A stretch of 64,000 nucleotides of DNA from Parafrankia elaeagni (GTDB lineage Bacteria > Actinomycetota > Actinomycetes > Frankiales > Frankiaceae), in NCBI RefSeq assembly GCF_000374165.1, contig NZ_KB893683.1:104608-168607 (forward strand), written 5' to 3'. Shown here piece by piece: positions 6,247-61,711 of the stretch. The translations under genes were made by a program, and so were the position numbers. The stretch's first letter is position 1. Every line of letters starts with the position of its first letter. The notes under the pieces were generated by a model. It saw nothing but the letters and a program-made list of their open reading frames with translations, had not been told where the DNA came from and ran no database searches.

Positions 6247-7947
6247 TCAGGCGGAGGCTTCGGTGCCCGCCGGGGCCTCGACGCCAAGCACGTCCGCGTC
6301 CAGCTTGGTGAACAGCCCGCCGGACCACTCCAGACGCCGCCCGGCCGGCACCGGCTGGCGGGCCCAGACATCCAGGTCGATGCCGAGCACCTCGGCGACC
6401 CGCGCCGAGCTGAACGGCAGGAACGGCGCGAGCGCGGTGGTGATGCCGGAGATCGCCTGGATCGAGACCGCGAGGCTGTGTGCCGCCGTGTCCTTGTCGA
6501 CCTTGACGGTCTTCCAGGGCTCCTCGCGGTAGAGGTAGGCGTTGACCTCGGCGGAGATCTCCATCGCCGCGCGCAGCGCCGCCCGCAGCTCGACCCGGCC
6601 CAGCAGCTCGGCCACCTTCACCAGCCCGGCGTCGACGGAGGCGAGCAGCTCGGCGTGCACGCCGTCGAGTTCGCCGGTGGCCGGCAGCTCACCGCCGAAG
6701 AACTTGTTGATCTGCGCCATCACGCGGTTGACCAGGTTGCCCCAGTTCGCGATCAGCTCGTCGTTCACCCGGCGGACGATGTCGGCGTCCGAGATCTCGG
6801 TGTCGTTCTGCTCGGGCAGCACCGAGGCGAGGGCGAAGCGCAGCGCGTCCGGCTGCAGCAGCTCGAGGTACTCGCGCACGCCGCGGCCGATCCCGGCCGA
6901 CTTGGACGCCTTGGCGCCCCCGAAGGTGACGTACTGGTTCGCCGGGACGTCGGTCGGCAGGTTCAGCCCGCCGTGGCCGAGCAGCATCGCCGGCCAGATG
7001 ACGGTGTGGAAGGGGATGTTGTCCTTGCCGACGAAGTAGTAGGCGGTGGCCTGCGGGTCCTCCCACCAGGCCCGCCACGCCTGCGGGTCGTCCGTGCCGG
7101 CCGCCCACTCCTTGCTCGCCGACAGGTAGCCGATGACCGCCTCGAACCAGACGTACAGCCGCTTGCCCGGGCCGAGTTCGTCCGTCGGCAGCGGGACGCC
7201 CCAGTCCAGGTCACGGGTGATCGCGCGGTCGTGCAGGCCGTCCTTGACGAACTGCACCGACCAGTTCAGGACGTGCCGGCGCCAGCCCTGGCGGGTCTGC
7301 AGCCAGTCGAGCAGCTGGTCGGAGAGGCCGGACAGGCGCAGGAAGAAGTGTGTCGTCTCCCGCATCTGGGGCACCGCGCCGGTGACCTTGCTGCGCGGGT
7401 CGATCAGCAGCTCCGGGTCGAGGGTGCGCCCGCAGTTCTCGCACTGGTCCCCGCGCGCCTGCGGGTAGGAGCAGTGCGGGCAGGTGCCGACGACGTACCG
7501 GTCCGGCAGGAAACGGCCCGCGTCAGGGTCGAAGAACTGGGAGGTCTCCTTCGGGTAGATGTACCCGGCGTCGCGCAGGCGGGTGAACACGTCCTGCGCG
7601 GTGGCCTCGTGGTTCTTCGTGCGGGTGGTGGTGAAGAGATCGAAGCTGATCCCCAGCCCGGACCAGATCCGCAGGAACTCCGGGTGGTACCGGTCGACGA
7701 TCTCCTGCGGGGTGACGCCCTCCTCGTCCGCCCGGACGGTGATCGGTGTGCCGTGCGCATCGGACCCCGAGACCATCAGCACCCGGTTGCCCGCCATGCG
7801 CTGGTAGCGGGCGAAGATGTCCGCGGGCAGGTAGGCACCGGCGATATGCCCGAGGTGCGGCTGCCCGTTGGCGTACGGCCACGCGACGGCGACAAGGACG
7901 GGACGGCCCTCGGGCCGCGCCGCCGTGCCGGGGGTCTGAGTGCTCAC
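6247..7947 (-). CDS. metG: Methionyl-tRNA synthetase
   Basis: Class I aminoacyl-tRNA synthetase that charges tRNA-Met in the cytoplasm. The HIGH motif is HLGH (residues 31-34), followed by the catalytic insertion with a zinc-knuckle (CPHC ... CENC), and the KMSKS motif appears as KASKS near residue 345, a common actinobacterial form. The C-terminal half is the helical anticodon-binding domain; there is no appended EMAP/Trbp111 domain, so about 566 residues is the short form. Two GTG codons are adjacent; I prefer the second (7947) because it stands exactly 6 bases after a TAGGTT -10 box (7954-7959), which fits a leaderless mRNA, and there is no ribosome-binding site. Downstream lies a 14-bp tandem duplication. 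Confidence 0.96.
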   Translation of the reverse strand: MSTQTPGTAARPEGRPVLVAVAWPYANGQPHLGHIAGAYLPADIFARYQRMAGNRVLMVSGSDAHGTPITVRADEEGVTPQEIVDRYHPEFLRIWSGLGISFDLFTTTRTKNHEATAQDVFTRLRDAGYIYPKETSQFFDPDAGRFLPDRYVVGTCPHCSYPQARGDQCENCGRTLDPELLIDPRSKVTGAVPQMRETTHFFLRLSGLSDQLLDWLQTRQGWRRHVLNWSVQFVKDGLHDRAITRDLDWGVPLPTDELGPGKRLYVWFEAVIGYLSASKEWAAGTDDPQAWRAWWEDPQATAYYFVGKDNIPFHTVIWPAMLLGHGGLNLPTDVPANQYVTFGGAKASKSAGIGRGVREYLELLQPDALRFALASVLPEQNDTEISDADIVRRVNDELIANWGNLVNRVMAQINKFFGGELPATGELDGVHAELLASVDAGLVKVAELLGRVELRAALRAAMEISAEVNAYLYREEPWKTVKVDKDTAAHSLAVSIQAISGITTALAPFLPFSSARVAEVLGIDLDVWARQPVPAGRRLEWSGGLFTKLDADVLGVEAPAGTEASA

Positions 7948-7953
7948 CACATC

Positions 7954-7959
7954 AACCTA
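7954..7959 (-). promoter_or_regulatory. -10 box of metG, leaderless type
   Basis: TAGGTT on the minus strand, with 6 bases between it and the GTG at 7947. That distance would put the transcript 5' end at or next to the start codon. Confidence 0.5.
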
Positions 7960-8020
7960 CCCGCCGGACGATGGTCGAGATCCACAGCCGCGGGGCGGCG
8001 GTTCGCCGGTCGCGGACCGG

Positions 8021-8040
8021 CCTGGCACGGCCTGGCACGG
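8021..8040. repeat. 10-bp direct tandem duplication just after rmlD
   Basis: CCTGGCACGG is repeated twice in tandem and ends 6 bases before the stop codon of the rmlD-like gene (read on the minus strand it is just downstream of that gene). Confidence 0.85.
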
Positions 8041-8046
8041 CGCGGC

Positions 8047-8961
8047 TCAGCCGTGCAGCTCCGGGCCGAAGTCGGCGACCGCGGCGGCGAACGCCTCGTC
8101 CCAGCAGCGCAGCGGGCGCAGGCCGGCGTCCTGCCACGACCGGGCGGAGAGCACCGAGTAGGCCGGGCGCTGCGCCGGGCGCGGGAACTGGGCCGTGGTG
8201 GTCGGCGCCACCTTGGCCGGATCCTCGCCGATCGCGGCGACGATCGCGCGGGCGAAGCCGAACCAGGTCGTCTCGCCGCCGCCGGTGCAGTGGTAGATCC
8301 CCGGGGCGGGTCGCGCCGTCACCAGGTCGAGCAGGCCGGCGGCCAGGTCGGCCGACCAGGTCGGGCTGCCGTGCTGGTCGGCGACGACGCTGAGCTCGTC
8401 GCGCTCCCGGGCCAGTCGCGCGATCGTCTTCACGAAGTTGGTGCCCGACCGCCCGTAGACCCAGGCCGTGCGCACCACGTACGACGCCGGGCACAGGGCC
8501 AGGACGGCCTCCTCGCCGGCGAGCTTCGTACGCCCGTAGGCGGAGACGGGGGCCGGCGGATCGTTCGTCTCGTACGGCTTCGAGGCGGTGCCGTCGAAGA
8601 CGTAGTCGGTGGAGAGGTGGACGAGGGCCGCCCCGGCCTCGGCGCACGCCGCCGCCAGGTGTGCCGGGCCGGTGGCGTTCACGGCATAGGCACCGGCCTC
8701 GTCCGCCTCGGCGCCGTCGACGTTCGTCCACGCGGCGGTGTTGATGACGACGAGGCCGCCCTGCACCTTGGCCGGCCGGGCCTGGTCGGCGATGACCGCG
8801 CGTACCCGGGCCGCGTCGGAGAGGTCGAGCTCGGAGCGGGTCAGCCCGGCCCAGGCGAGCACGCGCGTGTCGCGCGTGCGGTCGGCCTGTGACTCCACGT
8901 CGAGGAGACGACACAGATCATGACCGAGCTGTCCACCGGCACCAGTGACGAGGATGCGCAC
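8047..8961 (-). CDS. rfbD: dTDP-4-dehydrorhamnose reductase
   Basis: 304 residues, an extended SDR enzyme that makes the last step of dTDP-L-rhamnose synthesis using NADPH. Visible are the nucleotide-binding GAGGQLG (residues 7-13), NTAAWTNVDGAE, the family-typical HLSTDYVFDG, the catalytic YGRTK pair, and RTAWVYG. dTDP-rhamnose supplies the linker between peptidoglycan and arabinogalactan or other wall glycans, in keeping with the neighbouring glycosyltransferases and LCP ligases. In mycobacteria rmlD stands at the same place next to an LCP gene. The GTG at 8961 lies 6 bases after a CAGACT sequence (8968-8973), so the mRNA may be leaderless. It is divergent from the membrane glycosyltransferase at 9088. 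Confidence 0.95.
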   Translation of the reverse strand: MRILVTGAGGQLGHDLCRLLDVESQADRTRDTRVLAWAGLTRSELDLSDAARVRAVIADQARPAKVQGGLVVINTAAWTNVDGAEADEAGAYAVNATGPAHLAAACAEAGAALVHLSTDYVFDGTASKPYETNDPPAPVSAYGRTKLAGEEAVLALCPASYVVRTAWVYGRSGTNFVKTIARLARERDELSVVADQHGSPTWSADLAAGLLDLVTARPAPGIYHCTGGGETTWFGFARAIVAAIGEDPAKVAPTTTAQFPRPAQRPAYSVLSARSWQDAGLRPLRCWDEAFAAAVADFGPELHG

Positions 8962-53631: not shown

Positions 53632-55941
53632 TCAGCCGTTCTCGACCGCGAGAACCAGCGGCAGGACGCCGGGCGCGCCCGCCGCACGCAGCGCCCTTGC
53701 TGCCACTGTCATCGTCCAGCCTGTGACGATCAGGTCGTCCACGAGCAGCACCGGGCCGGGCAGACCGCCGAGTGCGTCGGCGAGCTCGGGCGGCGCGTCG
53801 AACGCCGACCACAGGCCGGCGAGGCGGTGCGCGCTGTTGTGCACCTGGCCGGCGAACGGCCCGCCGGCGACGCGGGGCAGTTCACCGAGCAGCGGCAGCC
53901 GCCCCACCTGGGCGATGCGCTCGCCGAGGCTGGCGACGAGCCGAGGACGGGTCCTCGACGCGACTGTCACGACCGCGGCCGGGCGCCGCTCCCACTCCCA
54001 CGCCGCGAGCATCTGCACCAGGGCGTCGAACACGTCGTCCGGCACCGGCCGGTCAGCCCCGGCGCCGCCGGAACCGCCGGAACCGCCAGAACCGCCGGCC
54101 ACGCCGGACGGGCTGGCGCCGCCGTCGGCGGCTGGCGGGGTGAGCAGGGCCCGGAGCCGGTTGCCCCAGCCCAGGTCGTTGAGCCGGGCCAGCGCCCGGC
54201 CGGGGAGGGCGCCGGCCGCGGCGGGAATCCGCCCGGAGGCCTCGACGCCCAGCGTGCGCATACCCGTCGGCCACATCCGGCGCGCTTCGACGACGACGCC
54301 GGGGCGCCGCAGCTCGGTGCGGGCGCCGGCCCGTGCCCCGGCCGAGACCTCTGATGTCCACTCCCGGCCCGTGCACCGGTCGCAGCGGCCACAGCGGCTC
54401 GCGTGCGGGTCGTCGAGGGCCCGGCGAAGGAACTCCATCCGGCAGTTCGGGGTCGCGATGTAGTCGAGCATCGCCTGCTGCTCCACGCCGCGTGCCGCGG
54501 CGACCCGGGCGTAGCGGGGCGCGTCGTAGGCCCATGGCACACCGGTCGACTCCCAGCCGCCCTTGACCCGCCGCACGGCACCGTCGGTGTCGAGCACCTT
54601 CAGCATCTGCTCCAGCCGGCTCGGCCCCAGGTCGACCACCGCGAGCAGCGCCTGTGTCGACATCACCCGGGTGGCCTGCTCCAACGCCCCGAGCACCACC
54701 CGCACCAGGTGCTCGGGCGGGAAGGACGTGTCCGCGAAGTACTTCCAGATCGCCTGATCCTCGGCGGCCGGCAGCAGGATCGCCTCCGCCGACTCCAGCG
54801 CCCGGCCGGCCCGGCCGACCTGCTGGTAGTAGGCGATCGGCGAGTTCGGCGCCCCGACGTGCACCACGAACCCGAGATCGGGCTTGTCGAAACCCATCCC
54901 GAGCGCGCTGGTGGCGACCAGGCACTTGACCCGGTTCGCCAGCAGGTCCTCCTCGGCGGCGATCCGCTCGGCCGGGTCCGTCCCGCCGTGGTACGTCGCC
55001 ACCGGGTGACCGCGGGTCCGCAGGAACGCGGTGAGCTCCTCCGCGGCGGGCTTGGTCAGCGTGTAGACGATGCCGGAGCCCGGAAGCTCGGCAAGCCGGT
55101 CGGAGATCCAGCCGAAGCGCTCCTCGGCCGATGGCAGAGAGACCACGGCGAGACGCAGGCTCTCCCTTTCCAGCGACCCCCGCAGGACCAGGGTGTATGC
55201 ACCCGCCGCATCGGCAGCACCCGCGCCGAGCTGCTCGCTCACGTCCTCGACCACCCGTGCGTTCGCCGTGGCGGTCGTCGCGAGGACGGGCACATCGGGC
55301 GCGAGCCCCCCGATCAGCGACCGCAGGCGGCGGTAGTCCGGACGGAAGTCGTGGCCCCAGTCCGAGATGCAGTGCGCCTCGTCGATGACCAGCAGCCCGG
55401 TCGTGCGCGCCAGCTCGGGCAGGTAGTCGTCCCGGAACGTGGGGTTGTTCAGCCGCTCCGGACCGACCAGCAGCAGGTCGAGCTCACCGGCCCGCAGGGC
55501 CGCGTACACCTCGTCCCACTCGGTGACGTTGCCCGAGTGGATCTCCCCGACGCGCACGCCGAGGCGCGCGGCCGCGGCCGCCTGGTTGCGGATCAGCGCC
55601 AGCAGCGGCGAGACGATCACAGTCGGCCCGACCCGACCCTCGCTCCGGCCCGGGCCACCGCCCGCGCCACCGCGCAGCAGCGCCGTCGCGAGGAAGTACA
55701 CCGCGGACTTCCCCCAGCCCGTGCGCTGGACGAGCAGCACCCGGCGCCGGCCGGTGACCAGGGCGTCGATCGCCCGCCACTGGTCATCTCGCAGCGCAGC
55801 GCCGGGACCGGCGAGGGCACGCAGCATCTCCTCAGCCCGCTCCCGCGACGCCCCGGCCCCGCCTGCCTGGTCGCTTCCGGGTGCCACGCCACGGGATGCC
55901 TCCGGGAGGGGGCCCGCACCGTCCGCCGCCAGTTCCGTCAT
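53632..55941 (-). CDS. recQ: RecQ family DNA helicase with C-terminal phosphoribosyltransferase-like domain
   Basis: 769 residues. Helicase motifs: DDQWRAIDAL (motif 0), RTGWGKSAVYF (Walker A), SPLLALIRNQ, DEAHCISDWGHDFRPDYR, TATAN, and YYQQVGRAGR. A four-cysteine zinc cluster follows (ATPNCRMEFL ... CGRCDRC). No HRDC domain is seen. The last 130 residues form a ComF-like phosphoribosyltransferase fold with the PRPP-type loop VLLVDDLIVTGWTM; this fusion occurs in other actinobacteria. It unwinds DNA in repair; the purpose of the added domain is unknown. ATG at 55941 follows TAGACA by 6 bases; AGGGGG may also act as a ribosome-binding site. Confidence 0.92.
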   Translation of the reverse strand: MTELAADGAGPLPEASRGVAPGSDQAGGAGASRERAEEMLRALAGPGAALRDDQWRAIDALVTGRRRVLLVQRTGWGKSAVYFLATALLRGGAGGGPGRSEGRVGPTVIVSPLLALIRNQAAAAARLGVRVGEIHSGNVTEWDEVYAALRAGELDLLLVGPERLNNPTFRDDYLPELARTTGLLVIDEAHCISDWGHDFRPDYRRLRSLIGGLAPDVPVLATTATANARVVEDVSEQLGAGAADAAGAYTLVLRGSLERESLRLAVVSLPSAEERFGWISDRLAELPGSGIVYTLTKPAAEELTAFLRTRGHPVATYHGGTDPAERIAAEEDLLANRVKCLVATSALGMGFDKPDLGFVVHVGAPNSPIAYYQQVGRAGRALESAEAILLPAAEDQAIWKYFADTSFPPEHLVRVVLGALEQATRVMSTQALLAVVDLGPSRLEQMLKVLDTDGAVRRVKGGWESTGVPWAYDAPRYARVAAARGVEQQAMLDYIATPNCRMEFLRRALDDPHASRCGRCDRCTGREWTSEVSAGARAGARTELRRPGVVVEARRMWPTGMRTLGVEASGRIPAAAGALPGRALARLNDLGWGNRLRALLTPPAADGGASPSGVAGGSGGSGGSGGAGADRPVPDDVFDALVQMLAAWEWERRPAAVVTVASRTRPRLVASLGERIAQVGRLPLLGELPRVAGGPFAGQVHNSAHRLAGLWSAFDAPPELADALGGLPGPVLLVDDLIVTGWTMTVAARALRAAGAPGVLPLVLAVENG

Positions 55942-56047: not shown

Positions 56048-57319
56048 TCAGTGCGCCCCGTTCTGCTTCTGGTAGCTGGCCACCTGCTCGGCGGCGGCCC
56101 AGTGCAGATGGCGGACGGCGAGCTCCTGGTCGTTGAGCGGGAACTCCGAGACGGCCCGAGTCTCCAGCATCTTCTGGGTCGCCTCCAGGGTGTTGCAGTC
56201 CTGCAGCGCGAACTCCTTGAACGTCACGGCGGCCAGTTCCTGGCGCAACCGATCGCTCGGGGTCCTCGGCGGGACGAAATACAGGGTGCCTTCGAAGATG
56301 TGCTTGTCGTAGGCGGTCGGCCAGTAGTGGTAGGTGAGGTACCAGCCCGGCGCCCACACCACGATCATGAAGTTCGGGAAGAAGACGTACGAATCGAGAC
56401 CCCAGGCCTTGTGGCCGGCGGGGTTGACACCCGGCGGAAGAGGGTCCAGCCCGGGAATGTCCGGCCGGTCCCACGGCCCGAAGTTCCCGCTGCGCAGCTT
56501 CTGCTCGATCGGCTTCACCATGTTGAGGTCGCGCGGCGGGGCCATACCGCCCCACGCGGACTGCATCGAGTGCAGACCGTCCAGCTCGTAGTGCAGCGAC
56601 TCGTAGCCGTAGCCCAGGAGCTTGCGTGACTCCTCGCCCACGTACTGCTTCGCGTGCAGGACCGGGGCGTGGTAGAACTCCGCGAACGCGTCGATGTAGA
56701 GCTTCCAGTTGCTGCCCACGTCCGCCCGGTACCGGTAGACCTCCGTCATCTCGCCGAACGGATAGCCCTCAAGGCCGGCCGCGAAACGACCGAGATATTC
56801 GCGCAGCGGCGCGGCCTCGTCGTCGAAGTTGACGAAGATAAAACCTTCCCACACCTCGCAGCGCACCGGGACGAGACCGAACTTCGACTTGTCGAGATCG
56901 AAGAACTCGGACTCCTGCTGGACGAAGGCGCACGCACCGTCCAGCCCGTAACGCCAGGCGTGGTACTTGCAGATGAACTGCCGCGCCGAACCGCTTGTCT
57001 CCGCCTGCGGGAAGTCGTTCCAGACCAGCTTGTTGCCGCGGTGCCGGCAGATGTTGTGGAACGCGCGGACCTCGCCGTCGGTGTCCCGCACGATGATCAC
57101 CGAGGCGTTCGCGGCGTGGATCTCCCTGGTGAAGTAGGCACCCCCGCGGGCGATCTGCTCCACCCGGCCCACGTTCAGCCAGGTGCGCCGGAAGATCGCC
57201 CTGCGTTCGAGCTCGTAGTGCGCCGGGGAGATCGAGTCCTCGAAGGAGACCGGACCCGTCCCGAGATCGGGGTAGTGCTCCGTCCAGCTGCCCTCGGCGG
57301 GCTTGGAGAAGTGGGCCAT
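56048..57319 (-). CDS. Rieske non-heme iron ring-hydroxylating oxygenase, alpha subunit
   Basis: 423 residues. The Rieske [2Fe-2S] site is CRHRGNKL ... CKYHAWRYGLDG and the catalytic iron site is in YIDAFAEFYHAPVLH with the bridging Asp. The N-terminal FRRTWLNVGRVEQI is usual for this group. Such enzymes insert oxygen into aromatic or other hydrophobic compounds; electrons come from a reductase and ferredoxin not present in the window. The ATG at 57319 has GGAGG 8 bases upstream. It is divergent from the TetR fusion gene and shares the AAAACGTACGA element, so it is the likely target of that regulator. Confidence 0.92.
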   Translation of the reverse strand: MAHFSKPAEGSWTEHYPDLGTGPVSFEDSISPAHYELERRAIFRRTWLNVGRVEQIARGGAYFTREIHAANASVIIVRDTDGEVRAFHNICRHRGNKLVWNDFPQAETSGSARQFICKYHAWRYGLDGACAFVQQESEFFDLDKSKFGLVPVRCEVWEGFIFVNFDDEAAPLREYLGRFAAGLEGYPFGEMTEVYRYRADVGSNWKLYIDAFAEFYHAPVLHAKQYVGEESRKLLGYGYESLHYELDGLHSMQSAWGGMAPPRDLNMVKPIEQKLRSGNFGPWDRPDIPGLDPLPPGVNPAGHKAWGLDSYVFFPNFMIVVWAPGWYLTYHYWPTAYDKHIFEGTLYFVPPRTPSDRLRQELAAVTFKEFALQDCNTLEATQKMLETRAVSEFPLNDQELAVRHLHWAAAEQVASYQKQNGAH

Positions 57320-57352
57320 GGTCTGCCTCCGTGACTGCAACCAGGTGGACTT

Positions 57353-57367
57353 GAGGAAAACGTACGA
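57353..57367 (-). promoter_or_regulatory. Putative operator A, before the Rieske gene
   Basis: GAGGAAAACGTACGA. On the minus strand it contains TACGTT, a fair -10 box about 40 bases before the ATG. Its core AAAACGTACGA is repeated in inverted orientation at 57503-57517. Confidence 0.55.
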
Positions 57368-57502
57368 TGCCGTCCGGTTTTGGTCAACCGTCCTTGACGC
57401 TGGTTCACCACCCCCGATCAGGCCTGACGGTGGCTGGGAGCAGGGGCTGCTCCGTCCCCGCGAGCGACGCGACGGGATGCCTTGACCCAGAAGCCGACGG
57501 TC

Positions 57503-57517
57503 TCGTACGTTTTTCCG
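57503..57517 (+). promoter_or_regulatory. Putative operator B, over the TetR fusion promoter
   Basis: TCGTACGTTTTTCCG. It holds the -10 box TACGTT (57506-57511) with 6 bases to the GTG at 57518, so a bound repressor would cover both promoter and start of a leaderless message. Twelve of 15 bases match operator A in inverted orientation. Confidence 0.55.
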
Positions 57518-59245
57518 GTGGAGCCCAGACAGAGCGACGGCGGACGTTCCCGGGCCGGCCGGCCGACGTCCGCCCAGGCCGCCCGGCTCACCGAGAGACT
57601 CCGCCGCGCGGCCGTCGACACGTTCCTCGAACACGGGTACGACGGGGCCACGATGGAGGCTGTCGCACGCGCCGCAGGGGTCACCAAGAGCACCCTGTAC
57701 AGCCGCTACCCCGACAAGCGGACGTTGTTCATCGCCGTCAGCTCCTGGGCACTGACCCGCCAGGAACGCGACACCCGTGTCCTCGAACCGCTGCCGGACG
57801 ACCTGGCCGCCGCCCTCACCCTGATCGCCCGGGCGATCCTCGCCCGGTCCGTCGACCCGGACATCGTCCGTCTCAGCCGGATGGCCATCGCCGAGTCCCC
57901 CCGGTTCCCGGAGTTCGCCGTCAGCTCCCAGGCCACCACCTGGTCACCGCGCATCCAGGTCATCATCGATCTCCTGCACGCCCGCGAGCGTGTCGGCGAC
58001 GTGACCGTTCCGGACGTCGCCCTGGCCGCCGAGCAGTTCTTCGCCATGGTCGGCGCCATGCCTGCCTGGCTCGCCGCCTACGGCATCTACCGCACTCCCG
58101 AGGCCGAGGACGAGCGCCTCCAGCACGCCGTGCGGCTCTTCCTGAACGGGATCCTCACCCGCGGCCCGGCGCGGCCGCCAGCAACAGCAGCAGCAGCAGC
58201 AGCAGCAAACCATCCGACCGTGGCCGAACCGGGCACGGCGCGCACCGCAGCCACCGCCGGGCCGCACGTGACGTCCAGCACTGCCGCCACCCGGCCGATG
58301 CGCTACCAGCCGCTCGGCCGCGGGGGCCTGTACGTCTCCCCGCTCGCCCTCGGCACCGGTGTCCTCGGCGACCCCCACCAGGGCTGCGACCAGCGAACCG
58401 CGACCGAGCTCGTCACCCGTTACCTCGACGCCGGCGGGAACCTCGTCGACCCCACCGAGCTGCGCGACGCCGACATCCACGCGCGGGCGGAGGAGATCAC
58501 CGGTGCGGCTCTGCGTGGTCGGCGCGCACAGGTCGTGCTGGCCACCAGCGCCGTCGCGGCGCCCGACCCGGCCCGCCACGGCAGCCGGAACAGCCGCCGC
58601 CACCTGCGCGCCGCCTGCGACGCCAGCCTGCGCCGGCTGGGCACCGACCACATCGACCTCTACCAGATCGCCGTCGACGATCCGGCGACGCCGCTGGACG
58701 AGACGGTCGAGGCACTCGACGATCTCGTGCGCGCCGGCAAGGTCCTCTACACGGGCGCCGCGGGCATCCCCGCCTACCGGCTCATGAAAGCGCTCGCCGC
58801 CAGTGACCGCACCGGCCGCGCTCGCTTCGTCTCCCTGCAGGCCGCCTACGGCCCGACGGCACGCTCCGTCGAGCGCGAGCACCTCCCCCTCCTCGCCGAG
58901 GAGGGGCTCGGCTTCATCGGCGTGACCGGCGCCGGGCCCGCACCCGGATCCGACCCGTCCGGGCCCGGCCCCGGGTACCCGGCCATCGTGCGGGCAGTGG
59001 CGGCCCGGGTCGGCTGCACACCCACCCAGCTGGCGCTGGCCTGGCAGTGGGCGAGGCCCGTCACCGCGGTGCGCGTCGACGCCCGGAACACGGTCTTCCT
59101 GGACGAGGTCCTCGCCGCCACGGGCCTGGAGCTCCCTGTCGAGGCCCTGGCCGAGATCGACCAGCACACCGAGCCCATCGGGATCAGCGGGTCCGGCAGG
59201 CCCGGCAGGCCCACCGACGGACACCCGAACAGACATCCGATCTGA
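57518..59245 (+). CDS. TetR regulator fused to a degenerate aldo/keto reductase domain
   Basis: 575 residues in one open frame. Residues 1-205 are a TetR protein: helix-turn-helix GYDGATMEAVARAAGVTKST, LYSRYPDKRTLF and a helical ligand domain. A linker (about 215-260) with seven Ala codons GCA in a row leads at residue 261 into MRYQPLGRGGLYVSPLALGTG, the start of an aldo/keto reductase. Of the catalytic tetrad only Asp311 remains: the Tyr position is Arg316, Lys is Ser344 (VVLATS) and His is Ala385 (LYQIA); the GVSN nucleotide motif reads GAAG. The second half may therefore bind a ligand without catalysis. No stop lies between the parts, so the fusion is real unless the sequence holds an error. 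GTG follows TACGTT by 6 bases. Confidence 0.88.
   Translation: MEPRQSDGGRSRAGRPTSAQAARLTERLRRAAVDTFLEHGYDGATMEAVARAAGVTKSTLYSRYPDKRTLFIAVSSWALTRQERDTRVLEPLPDDLAAALTLIARAILARSVDPDIVRLSRMAIAESPRFPEFAVSSQATTWSPRIQVIIDLLHARERVGDVTVPDVALAAEQFFAMVGAMPAWLAAYGIYRTPEAEDERLQHAVRLFLNGILTRGPARPPATAAAAAAANHPTVAEPGTARTAATAGPHVTSSTAATRPMRYQPLGRGGLYVSPLALGTGVLGDPHQGCDQRTATELVTRYLDAGGNLVDPTELRDADIHARAEEITGAALRGRRAQVVLATSAVAAPDPARHGSRNSRRHLRAACDASLRRLGTDHIDLYQIAVDDPATPLDETVEALDDLVRAGKVLYTGAAGIPAYRLMKALAASDRTGRARFVSLQAAYGPTARSVEREHLPLLAEEGLGFIGVTGAGPAPGSDPSGPGPGYPAIVRAVAARVGCTPTQLALAWQWARPVTAVRVDARNTVFLDEVLAATGLELPVEALAEIDQHTEPIGISGSGRPGRPTDGHPNRHPI
58185..58207. repeat. CAG/GCA trinucleotide run in the linker
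   Basis: Almost eight CAG units in tandem, read in frame as GCA (Ala). GCA is a rare choice in this DNA, so this looks like slippage-made sequence; changes in copy number would alter only linker length. Confidence 0.85.
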
Positions 59246-59395
59246 CCGGCCTTCGATCCGACGGGCTTCCGGGCCGGCCCAAATCCAGCGTCCGGGCGGG
59301 CTCCCGCCGCCCGTGACGGACATCCAACGCAGCCAGCATTTTCTTCCGCCGCACGCTCACCTCGCGGGCGGTCGACGTCGAAAGGACACGAAATC

Positions 59396-60157
59396 ATGGC
59401 CGGACCACAGATCGGCAGAGTCGCCGTCGTCACGGGCGGTGCCTCGGGCATCGGACGTTCCTGCGCGCTGCGGCTGGCCCGCGACGGCGCCAGGGTGGCC
59501 GTGCTCGACCTCAACGCCGCGGACGCCAAGGAGGTCGCGGCCGAGATCCAGGCCGAGGGCGGCTCCGCACTCGCCGTCGGTGTCGACGTCGCCGACCGCG
59601 CGAGCGTCGACGCGGCCCTCGCCGAGACCCGTGAACACCTCGGCCCGGTCGCCATCCTGGTCAACTCGGCCGGGAAGACCGCCTCGAACCGCTTCCTCAA
59701 CATCTCCCTCGAGCTGTGGACGTCGATCCTGACCGTGAACCTCACCGGCACGTTCCACTGCTGCCAGGCCGCCGTCCCCGACATGATCGAGGCCGGCTGG
59801 GGACGGATCGTCAACATCTCCTCCTCCAGCGCCCACAGCGGCCAGGCGTACATGACCCACTACGTGGCCTCGAAAGCCGGCGTCATCGGCCTCACCAAGT
59901 CCCTCGCACTCGAACTCGGCCCGAACGGCATCACCGTCAACACCATCCCGCCCGGCTTCGTCGACACCCCGATGCTGCGCGACAGTGAGAGGAAGGGCCG
60001 TTTCGGGATGAGCGTGGACGAGCACGCCGCCCGTACCCCGGTCCGCCGCGTCGGCCGCCCGGAGGACATCGCCGCCGCCTGCTCGTTCCTCGCCTCCGAG
60101 GAGGCCGGCTACATCACCGGCCAGATCATCGGCGTCAACGGCGGCCGCAACACCTGA
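59396..60157 (+). CDS. Short-chain dehydrogenase/reductase, copy 1
   Basis: 253 residues, classical SDR of FabG-like type: TGGASGIGRS cofactor loop (13-22), NSAGKT (in place of NNAG), NISSSSAHSG with the catalytic Ser, YVASK with Tyr and Lys, and the C-terminal GYITGQIIGVNGG. The Asp after the second strand (VLDLNAA) favours NAD(H) over NADP(H). Substrate unknown. It is a near twin of the gene at 60953 and follows the TetR fusion, so it may act on products of the Rieske oxygenase. ATG with AGGACA about 8 bases before it. Confidence 0.93.
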   Translation: MAGPQIGRVAVVTGGASGIGRSCALRLARDGARVAVLDLNAADAKEVAAEIQAEGGSALAVGVDVADRASVDAALAETREHLGPVAILVNSAGKTASNRFLNISLELWTSILTVNLTGTFHCCQAAVPDMIEAGWGRIVNISSSSAHSGQAYMTHYVASKAGVIGLTKSLALELGPNGITVNTIPPGFVDTPMLRDSERKGRFGMSVDEHAARTPVRRVGRPEDIAAACSFLASEEAGYITGQIIGVNGGRNT

Positions 60158-60224
60158 GCCGGCCGCGACGCCTGAGCCGGCCGCGACGCCCGACCCGGCC
60201 GCGACGCCCGACCCGGCCGGGGCG
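60153..60224. repeat. 18-bp tandem repeat, four copies, starting in a stop codon
   Basis: Units of CCTGAGCCGGCCGCGACG, the first two exact, copies three and four with C for T and A changes. The TGA of the SDR gene (60155-60157) is in the first unit. Confidence 0.9.
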
Positions 60225-60239
60225 GCTCAGCCCCGGCCG
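60214..60239. terminator. Hairpin between convergent SDR and glyoxalase genes
   Basis: CGGCCGGGGC at 60214-60223 pairs with GCCCCGGCCG at 60230-60239 around a six-base loop that contains the glyoxalase stop codon. Confidence 0.5.
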
Positions 60240-60616
60240 AGCATGGCCTCCAGGGCGATGTTGTCCGGGTCACGGAAGGCCAGCAGCCAGCCGAACGGCA
60301 GCTCCTGGGTCGGGGTGAAGACCGCACCGGCCGCAGCGAGACGCTTCTCCAGCCCGTCCAGCCCGTCCCGCCCCGACACCGAGAACGAAAGATGATCCAG
60401 CCCCGGGCGCCGCTCGTCGAACAGCTCCGCGCTGCTCTCGTCGTGCTGCCGCAGGACGATACCGAGACCTCCGGGAAGCACCCCGTGGGCGAACGACGTC
60501 GTCTCCCCGCGGCCGCGGACCAGCTCCCTCCATTCCAGGACCGCCGTGTACCAGGCACAGCTACGCTCCAGGTCCCGAACTGTCAGACCCACATGTGACA
60601 CCCCGTCGAACGGCAT
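60227..60616 (-). CDS. Glyoxalase/bleomycin resistance (VOC) family protein
   Basis: 129 residues with two beta-alpha-beta-beta-beta repeats: FDGVSHVGLTVRDLERSCAWY (first metal His) and LDHLSFSVSGRDGLDGLEKRLAAAG, ending FRDPDNIALEAML with the Glu ligand. The ATG at 60616 has GGGGAGG about 7 bases before it. VOC proteins include lyases, dioxygenases and binding proteins; the substrate is unknown. It lies on the opposite strand between the two SDR copies. Confidence 0.9.
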   Translation of the reverse strand: MPFDGVSHVGLTVRDLERSCAWYTAVLEWRELVRGRGETTSFAHGVLPGGLGIVLRQHDESSAELFDERRPGLDHLSFSVSGRDGLDGLEKRLAAAGAVFTPTQELPFGWLLAFRDPDNIALEAMLGRG

Positions 60617-60952
60617 TGACGTCCTCCCCTGCTGACCCGATGACCGACATCGCGTCCCGCAGCACCTCACCCTCCCGGCCGGCCCCGTCCCCGAAGGCCC
60701 GCCCGCCGGAGCCGCCCGCGGCGCGACGTGCCTCACTGTAGGAACGATCAGTCAGTCGTGCGCGACCCGAACGGCCTTCCTCCATCCCACACCGGCCGGG
60801 ACGTCGAGACACCGTGAGTCAGCCGCCTCCCGCTCCCCAGCTTCCCCGCCCGGCCATCCCATCCATCGGCGGCCTTGCTGGGAAACAATAAGAATCCCGG
60901 CCATACGGTCGGCGGAGCGGGCAACAGGAAGCTGACACTGGAGGGGCGCCAC

Positions 60953-61711
60953 ATGGGCCAGACACTCGCGGGCAGGGTCGCCGTCGTGACCGGCGGCGCC
61001 TCCGGCATCGGACGTTCCTGCGCACTGCGGCTCGCCCAGGACGGCGCCAGAGTCGCGGTCCTCGATCTCAACGCGGCCCACGCCGGGGACGTCGCCGCCG
61101 AGATCCAGGCCGAGGGCGGCACCGCCCACGCCGTCGGCGTCGACGTGGCCGACCGCGCAAGCGTCGACCGGGCACTGGCCGAGGTCCGGAAGCACCTCGG
61201 CCCGATCGCCATCCTCGTCAACTCCGCCGGGAAGACCGCCCACGACAGCTTCCTCGACATCTCCCTCGAGCTGTGGACGTCGGTCCTGACCGTGAACCTC
61301 ACCGGCACGTTCCACTGCTGCCAGGCCGCCGTCCCCGACATGATCGAGGCCGGCTGGGGACGGATCGTCAACATCTCCTCCTCCAGCGCCCACAGCGGCG
61401 TGCCCTACATGACCCATTACGTCGCCTCGAAAGCCGGAGTCATCGGCCTCACCAAGTCCCTCGCACTCGAACTCGGCCCAAGCGGCATCACCGTCAACAC
61501 CATCCCCCCGGGATTCATCGACACCCCGATGCTGCGCACCGCCCAGGCCGGTTTCCTCGACACACCGACGGAAAAAGTGATCGGCCAGACACCTGTCCGG
61601 CGCGCCGGGCGCCCGGAGGACATCTCCGCCGCCTGCGCCTTTCTCGTCTCCGAAGACGCCGGCTACATCACCGGCCAGGTCATCGGCGTCAACGGCGGCC
61701 GCAACACCTGA
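60953..61711 (+). CDS. Short-chain dehydrogenase/reductase, copy 2
   Basis: 252 residues, the same enzyme type as copy 1: TGGASGIGRS, NSAGKT, NISSSSAHSG, YVASK, GYITGQVIGVNGG. The central part is almost identical in DNA to copy 1: 116 bases from 61284 match 59727-59842 without mismatch, while the region around the substrate lid (residues 195-215) differs clearly. So the two may have different substrates. ATG at 60953 with GGAGGGG 8 bases upstream; the longer frame from 60875 is less likely. Convergent with the membrane gene at 61728. Confidence 0.93.
   Translation: MGQTLAGRVAVVTGGASGIGRSCALRLAQDGARVAVLDLNAAHAGDVAAEIQAEGGTAHAVGVDVADRASVDRALAEVRKHLGPIAILVNSAGKTAHDSFLDISLELWTSVLTVNLTGTFHCCQAAVPDMIEAGWGRIVNISSSSAHSGVPYMTHYVASKAGVIGLTKSLALELGPSGITVNTIPPGFIDTPMLRTAQAGFLDTPTEKVIGQTPVRRAGRPEDISAACAFLVSEDAGYITGQVIGVNGGRNT

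Follow-up and report, generated by a model that had tools for sequence, protein, structure and literature searches.

The 64-kb window (the whole stretch of DNA analysed, 64,000 nucleotides) encodes a protein in which a TetR-type repressor runs, in one frame, into an aldo/keto reductase (AKR) domain lacking its active site and cofactor landmarks. The same fusion occurs in all seven Parafrankia genomes compared. We refer to the disarmed domain as the pseudo-AKR. Our account is that the protein is a working TetR repressor of a divergent Rieske oxygenase gene, and of itself, with an accessory pseudo-AKR acquired once in the Parafrankia ancestor. Drawn from sequence comparisons, this account has, in our judgement, an even chance of being correct. 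The features discussed are listed in Table 1.

Table 1. Positions of the fusion gene, its parts, its neighbours and the associated regulatory elements in the window.
Feature	Position	Strand	Details
TetR::pseudo-AKR fusion gene	57518..59245	+	575 aa; single stop-free ORF; probable leaderless GTG start
TetR_N helix-turn-helix	57605..57739	+	residues 30-74; Pfam PF00440, E 6.4e-14
TetR_C_7 AefR-like effector/dimer domain	57812..58144	+	residues 99-209; PF14246, E 1e-18
Linker	58163..58297	+	residues 216-260; low complexity, Ala/GCA repeat; unconserved
Pseudo-AKR domain	58298..59170	+	residues 261-551; D311 kept, R316/S344/A385 replacing Tyr/Lys/His
Pseudo-AKR, part under strongest constraint	58583..58921	+	residues 356-468; omega 0.003-0.098 in 8 pairs, the lowest value coming from a pair with saturated dS
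Regulator promoter-like pair	57482..57511	+	TTGACC (57482-57487) - 18 nt - TACGTT (57506-57511); ends 6 nt before GTG
Rieske promoter-like pair	57359..57387	-	TTGACC - 17 nt - TACGTT
Operator-like 22-bp dyad	57358..57379	.	AAACGTACGATGCCGTCCGGTT; overlaps the Rieske promoter at its -10 and in part of its spacer
Second dyad	57491..57512	.	AAGCCGACGGTCTCGTACGTTT; overlaps spacer and -10 of the regulator's promoter-like pair
Divergent Rieske oxygenase alpha-subunit gene, probable target	56048..57319	-	Pfam PF00355 + PF00848
Downstream SDR gene	59396..60157	+	adjoins the fusion in 5/7 fused loci

The earlier note described a one-frame fusion of TetR and AKR, and this stood up: the reading frame is uninterrupted, and Pfam matches both types of domain within it. 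The TetR_N, TetR_C_7 and Aldo_ket_red matches all exceed the curated Pfam cut-offs. Thus, the protein has both the N-terminal helix-turn-helix and the alpha-helical effector/dimer domain that define a TetR regulator, as judged by Pfam from sequence. The Aldo_ket_red model (PF00248) matches residues 276-551 (E 3.7e-38), covering profile positions 2-290 of 291. By this homology across the (beta/alpha)8 barrel, the second half is a member of the AKR superfamily. In the linker, a run of GCA/CAG triplets (window positions 58178-58210) encodes alanine; this run is fast-changing and is shorter in the nearest relative (G002).

We considered whether the fusion could reflect an error of sequencing, assembly or reading frame, as the earlier note had cautioned. 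This was ruled out because the same fusion, without interruption, is present in seven separate assemblies. A profile built from the seven fused proteins recovered the fusion, over essentially its full length, in 7/7 Parafrankia genomes and in 0/29 other genomes of the family. The Parafrankia set includes P. colletiae, P. soli, EUN1f and one genome titled Frankia sp. EI5c. Matches in G003 and G004 contained a single TGA; the fused frames are open throughout, and we take the match to overrun the gene's own stop. Among 148 genomes sampled from the class, the 144 from outside the genus gave no match spanning TetR and AKR at E <= 1e-65. No TetR-AKR fusion was among the matches listed for 100 genomes of the phylum. 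Similarly, 0/20 long open frames, a subset hand-picked from those listed in the wider scans, had TetR and AKR matches in one stop-free frame. A scan of a named collection identified 18 loci: 4 were fused, 6 were close unfused TetR orthologues (from Pseudofrankia/Frankia, Catenulispora rubra and Streptacidiphilus jeojiense) and 8 were distant. The earlier note knew of no described regulator family with this design. Consistent with this, we found no description of a TetR-AKR regulator among the titles and opening lines of abstracts listed from the open-licence literature, which is not proof of absence.

The GTG at 57518 is probably the true start of the fusion gene, since a conserved promoter-like pair ends just upstream. 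A TTGAC..TANNNT pair lies directly before the regulator start in 8 of the 15 upstream regions compared, namely those of the seven fused genes and of Streptacidiphilus. A generic, stricter scan of positions 57300-59450 for the sigma-70 consensus found no promoter; the promoter and start assignments therefore rest on conservation. Translation from TTG 57482 was judged less likely; this TTG sits in the conserved TTGACC (-35) box.

We next describe the pseudo-AKR in relation to eight intact AKRs. The strand numbers, and the catalytic and cofactor roles of the residues compared, are those that we take from AKR biochemistry. The Asp of the Asp-Tyr-Lys-His tetrad is the only member kept, in 7/7 fused proteins (D311). 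The alignment bore out the replacement of Tyr, Lys and His by Arg316, Ser344 and Ala385 that had been read from the window protein, R316 being placed by eye where the position of the gap is uncertain. Tyr is absent from all seven proteins. At position 344 the catalytic Lys has given way to S, S, T, G, G, S and S, and at position 385 the His has given way to A, A, G, S, S, D and D. The NAD(P)-binding landmarks of AKR enzymes are likewise missing from every fused protein. Thus, the GxSN motif is replaced by GAAG (413-416) in the window protein, in agreement with the change of GVSN noted earlier, and its Ser415 is kept in 0/7. The same is true for positions W469, P471 and G475 of the Trp-Ser-Pro-Leu...Gly (SPLxxG..TG) loop after strand 7, and for the late cofactor positions 521 (Gly) and 531 (Asn). 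Each of the positions lost in the fused set is kept in 7 or 8 of the 8 intact AKRs. Low-complexity sequence stands in place of the segment after strand 7; this stretch is shorter in most of the seven proteins (not in G006). The C-terminal tail is truncated. Conversely, the DDPxTP motif (387-392) is retained in 7/7. Hence, the earlier view of an otherwise well-kept barrel is most accurate for the middle (approximately residues 356-468), and not for the segment after strand 7 or the tail. By its landmarks, the pseudo-AKR is non-catalytic. Taken together, the landmark losses, the replaced loop and the truncated tail argue against catalysis and against nicotinamide sensing; the suggestion that the barrel reads a nicotinamide cofactor was not borne out.

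The pseudo-AKR is under purifying selection that is relaxed relative to an enzyme, yet the domain is not free to change. We estimated omega for pairs of genes with codon models, using our own script rather than a standard package. For the pseudo-AKR, omega was 0.087-0.207 in 8/8 pairs (2dlnL 24-142 against neutrality); these pairs have lineages in common, three are independent and several have saturated dS. In the same analysis the TetR half gave 0.013-0.047. Control values were 0.036 and 0.063 for intact AKRs (two pairs), 0.012-0.105 for the Rieske gene (four pairs) and 0.028-0.035 for SDR1 (three pairs). Within the pseudo-AKR, the N- and C-terminal parts are looser than residues 356-468, and the strongest constraint is not in the former cofactor loop. 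Neutrality was not separable in one of the eight pairs for the N-terminal part (G001-G005) and in one for the C-terminal part (G000-G004). The linker was left out because its omega was saturated or undecided. Nonsense changes in the pseudo-AKR were also counted. On three independent paths, 13.6-16.3 were expected neutrally, assuming GC-rich base frequencies, and 0 were observed. The purifying selection could reflect avoidance of misfolding alone, and conservation of residues 356-468 may simply mark the fold core. The TetR effector domain had an omega of 0.026-0.055 in fused proteins (4 pairs) and 0.039-0.077 in unfused proteins (5 pairs). Since constraint is similar in the two groups, the effector role appears not to have been handed over to the barrel.

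The Rieske gene noticed beside the fusion is its divergent partner in 7/7 fused loci. All 15 orthologous upstream regions (7 fused, 8 unfused) contain a 22-bp dyad resembling AACCGTACGG-NN-CCGTACGGTT. Because we derived the consensus by eye from these very loci, the count of 15/15 is partly circular, and descriptive more than a test. In all 15 regions, the dyad overlaps the Rieske-facing TTGAC..TANNNT pair. The best dyads score 15-19 of 20; that of G005 reaches 15 only with a spacer one base shorter, and scores 14 at the Rieske side. The dyad at the regulator's own promoter scores 13 in G003 and G004, and falls outside the four best in G011, G029 and G026. Independently of the 15/15 count, the top two dyads of this kind in the window are those at 57358 (score 17) and 57491 (score 15); the next scores 14. 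With at most 3 mismatches allowed, the full dyad matches once in the window and never in 100 shuffles.

We also counted matches to a degenerate form of the pattern, in both orientations, against a reversed control. There were 4 versus 0 matches in G000, 15 versus 1 in G002, 8 versus 0 in G006 and 3 versus 1 in G004. All 4 matches in G000 (2 sites, both strands) are inside the fusion/Rieske intergenic region. The counts for G005 (8 versus 7), G001 (7 versus 7) and G003 (3 versus 7) are at or near the control, and the degenerate pattern is therefore unspecific in these genomes. P. colletiae has a second Rieske paralogue, 78% identical, with the same arrangement of promoter and dyad (G002:C146; L102 5770-6005) and a further dyad ~150 bp away. 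This shared layout ties the dyad motif to this oxygenase. No matching TetR gene was found in the 12 kb examined around this paralogue; the fusion protein may control it in trans. Among seven stretches that contain TetR paralogues (L029, L031-L035 and L039), the only dyad scoring at least 15 is one in L031, which scores 15 and lies ~6 kb from the TetR gene of that stretch. Solved relatives of the Rieske protein comprised only a broad spread of oxygenases. These are too varied and, therefore, we propose no substrate.

On the other side of the fusion, an SDR gene directly follows the orthologous TetR gene in Streptacidiphilus; in five of the seven Parafrankia loci the AKR half lies between the two. 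An SDR gene beside the fusion was not found in the stretches examined for G003 and G004. The window contains two similar SDR genes at 59396-61711, with a glyoxalase-fold gene between them on the opposite strand. The second SDR gene and the glyoxalase gene were matched in G002, and not in the stretches examined for the other five fused relatives. Further away, the reverse strand encodes a RecQ-like helicase (53632-55941), matched only by helicase-type Pfam families. Its C-terminal part contains VLLVDDxxxTGxT, which we take to be a phosphoribosyltransferase-like motif.

The simplest account of the fusion's origin is that an AKR gene was captured once and a stop codon was then lost. In the AKR tree a long stem leads to a single clade (100/100) of all seven pseudo-AKRs, and this clade joins three intact AKRs from the family (98/96, midpoint root). 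The latter are all near TetR-type genes; the stretch examined also contains a Rieske gene for two of them and an SDR gene for two. The parent enzyme thus plausibly handled intermediates of such a pathway. In the TetR tree the fused proteins are not one clade. Those of G003 and G004 branch apart with weak support, and a single fused clade is not rejected (p-AU 0.09). One of the three intact AKRs, from G015, is encoded at a paralogous locus (L029) by a gene (7767-8822) that overlaps a TetR gene (7000-7770) at an ATGA. Separate TetR and AKR genes with an intact tetrad, which the earlier note had set against a genuine fusion, therefore exist at this paralogous locus; the fusion itself is not refuted. 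This overlapping pair is similar to the probable precursor, and illustrates how such a fusion could arise. The unfused TetR orthologue of Catenulispora rubra (L045 4001-4978; 81% over the TetR part) has an unrelated C-terminal extension in the same place. The extension is roughly 115-120 residues long and has no Pfam match.

We propose the following model. The fusion protein is predicted to bind the 22-bp dyads over both promoters, shutting off the divergent Rieske gene and itself. A small molecule in TetR's own effector domain would then release the protein from the DNA. In the Parafrankia ancestor, an AKR gene would have been joined once, in frame, to the 3' end of the TetR gene. The AKR half would subsequently have lost catalysis and cofactor binding as a whole, while its conserved middle section stayed. 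The barrel most likely sits on the TetR dimer as an accessory module with an allosteric or docking role; it might, for instance, steady the dimer or contact a pathway enzyme, and we prefer this to a role as primary sensor. Support of this docking or allosteric kind is weakly favoured over a second ligand sensor because constraint is in the middle of the domain, not in the cofactor loop or C-terminal part. More tentatively, the protein might be a one-component regulator with two inputs, the TetR pocket and a pseudo-AKR that senses a Rieske/SDR pathway intermediate or serves as a dock for an enzyme of that pathway.

Alternatively, as first suggested, the barrel could have become a sensor: an aldehyde, a ketone or some other intermediate of the pathway would bind to it without being turned over, and the signal would pass to the helix-turn-helix. 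Continued constraint on a dead enzyme is consistent with this, as are the TetR-type, Rieske and SDR neighbours of the nearest intact AKRs and the retention of Asp311 and DDPxTP. However, the residues at the Lys and His positions vary by species, unlike those of a conserved pocket, and neither the loop after strand 7 nor the tail is preserved, the one being replaced and the other truncated. A sensor barrel is possible, though not favoured, because selection on the TetR effector domain shows no relaxation and the barrel has lost its cofactor landmarks; we consider it rather unlikely. The stronger claim, that the barrel is the sensor, is not supported: constraint on the TetR effector domain is no weaker in fused than in unfused proteins, and unfused orthologues occur at the same dyad with no fused AKR. 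The fusion could also be a frozen accident of stop codon loss, the dead AKR relic being kept only since truncation or misfolding would harm the repressor. In keeping with this, the AKR half is evolving at several times the rate of the TetR half (1.26 versus 0.28 on the tree path G000-G004), has an omega above both intact AKR pairs and contains low-complexity inserts. Yet unfused orthologues indicate that the repressor half manages without an AKR, and 0/7 lineages have shed the barrel. The shortfall of ~14-16 neutral stops, on the three independent paths alone, and a constraint on the middle section about equal to that of neighbouring genes also argue against an accident, which we regard as unlikely.

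Two further readings concern the activity of the AKR half itself. It might also, or mainly, be translated on its own from the internal ATG 58298. M261 is invariant in 7/7 proteins despite the unconserved linker before it. However, by eye there is no close Shine-Dalgarno sequence before this ATG in the window, G001 and G005 have a weak GAGG, and several intact AKRs begin with Met at this place, so that M261 may be a relic or structural. A separate product is thus very improbable. Even less credible is that the pseudo-AKR remains an active enzyme with unusual chemistry. The tetrad Asp is kept and the Pfam AKR score is far over the cut-off, but all seven proteins lack the other three catalytic residues and the cofactor landmarks.

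The locus lets the capture of a metabolic enzyme by a transcription factor be traced: sequenced relatives include unfused repressors at the same dyad, an overlapping but separate TetR/AKR gene pair whose active site is intact, and seven disarmed fusions. It is a natural test case of an enzyme recycled as a regulator part, dead and yet evolutionarily preserved. A single conserved operator-like site allows the states before and after the capture to be compared. Should the barrel contribute to regulation, the fusion would show how one-component regulators gain inputs.

The protein resembles AefR-like TetR regulators (PF00440 with PF14246) in its N-terminal helix-turn-helix, its effector domain, its probable divergent target gene and its promoter-overlapping dyad. 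It differs from its unfused orthologues, in Pseudofrankia/Frankia relatives, Catenulispora rubra and Streptacidiphilus jeojiense, which have no reductase barrel. The AKR half shares nearly the whole Aldo_ket_red model, and the sequence of the middle barrel, with AKRs near 4xk2, DepB and DON 3-epimerase. Conversely, it has lost the tetrad Tyr, Lys and His and the cofactor motifs, and is joined to a DNA-binding protein. Kv channel beta subunits, which are among the sequence matches of the AKR half, place an AKR domain within a regulatory complex; they retain the catalytic residues and bind NADPH. The fused domain is similar in being an AKR domain within a regulator, and different in lacking the catalytic and NADPH-binding motifs. 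NmrA and Gal80 are oxidoreductase-derived Rossmann folds that have kept dinucleotide binding and are partners of a separate DNA-binding protein. As is proposed here, a former dehydrogenase fold serves in gene control. In the fusion, however, it is an AKR barrel, without cofactor motifs, that is carried on the same chain as the DNA-binding part.
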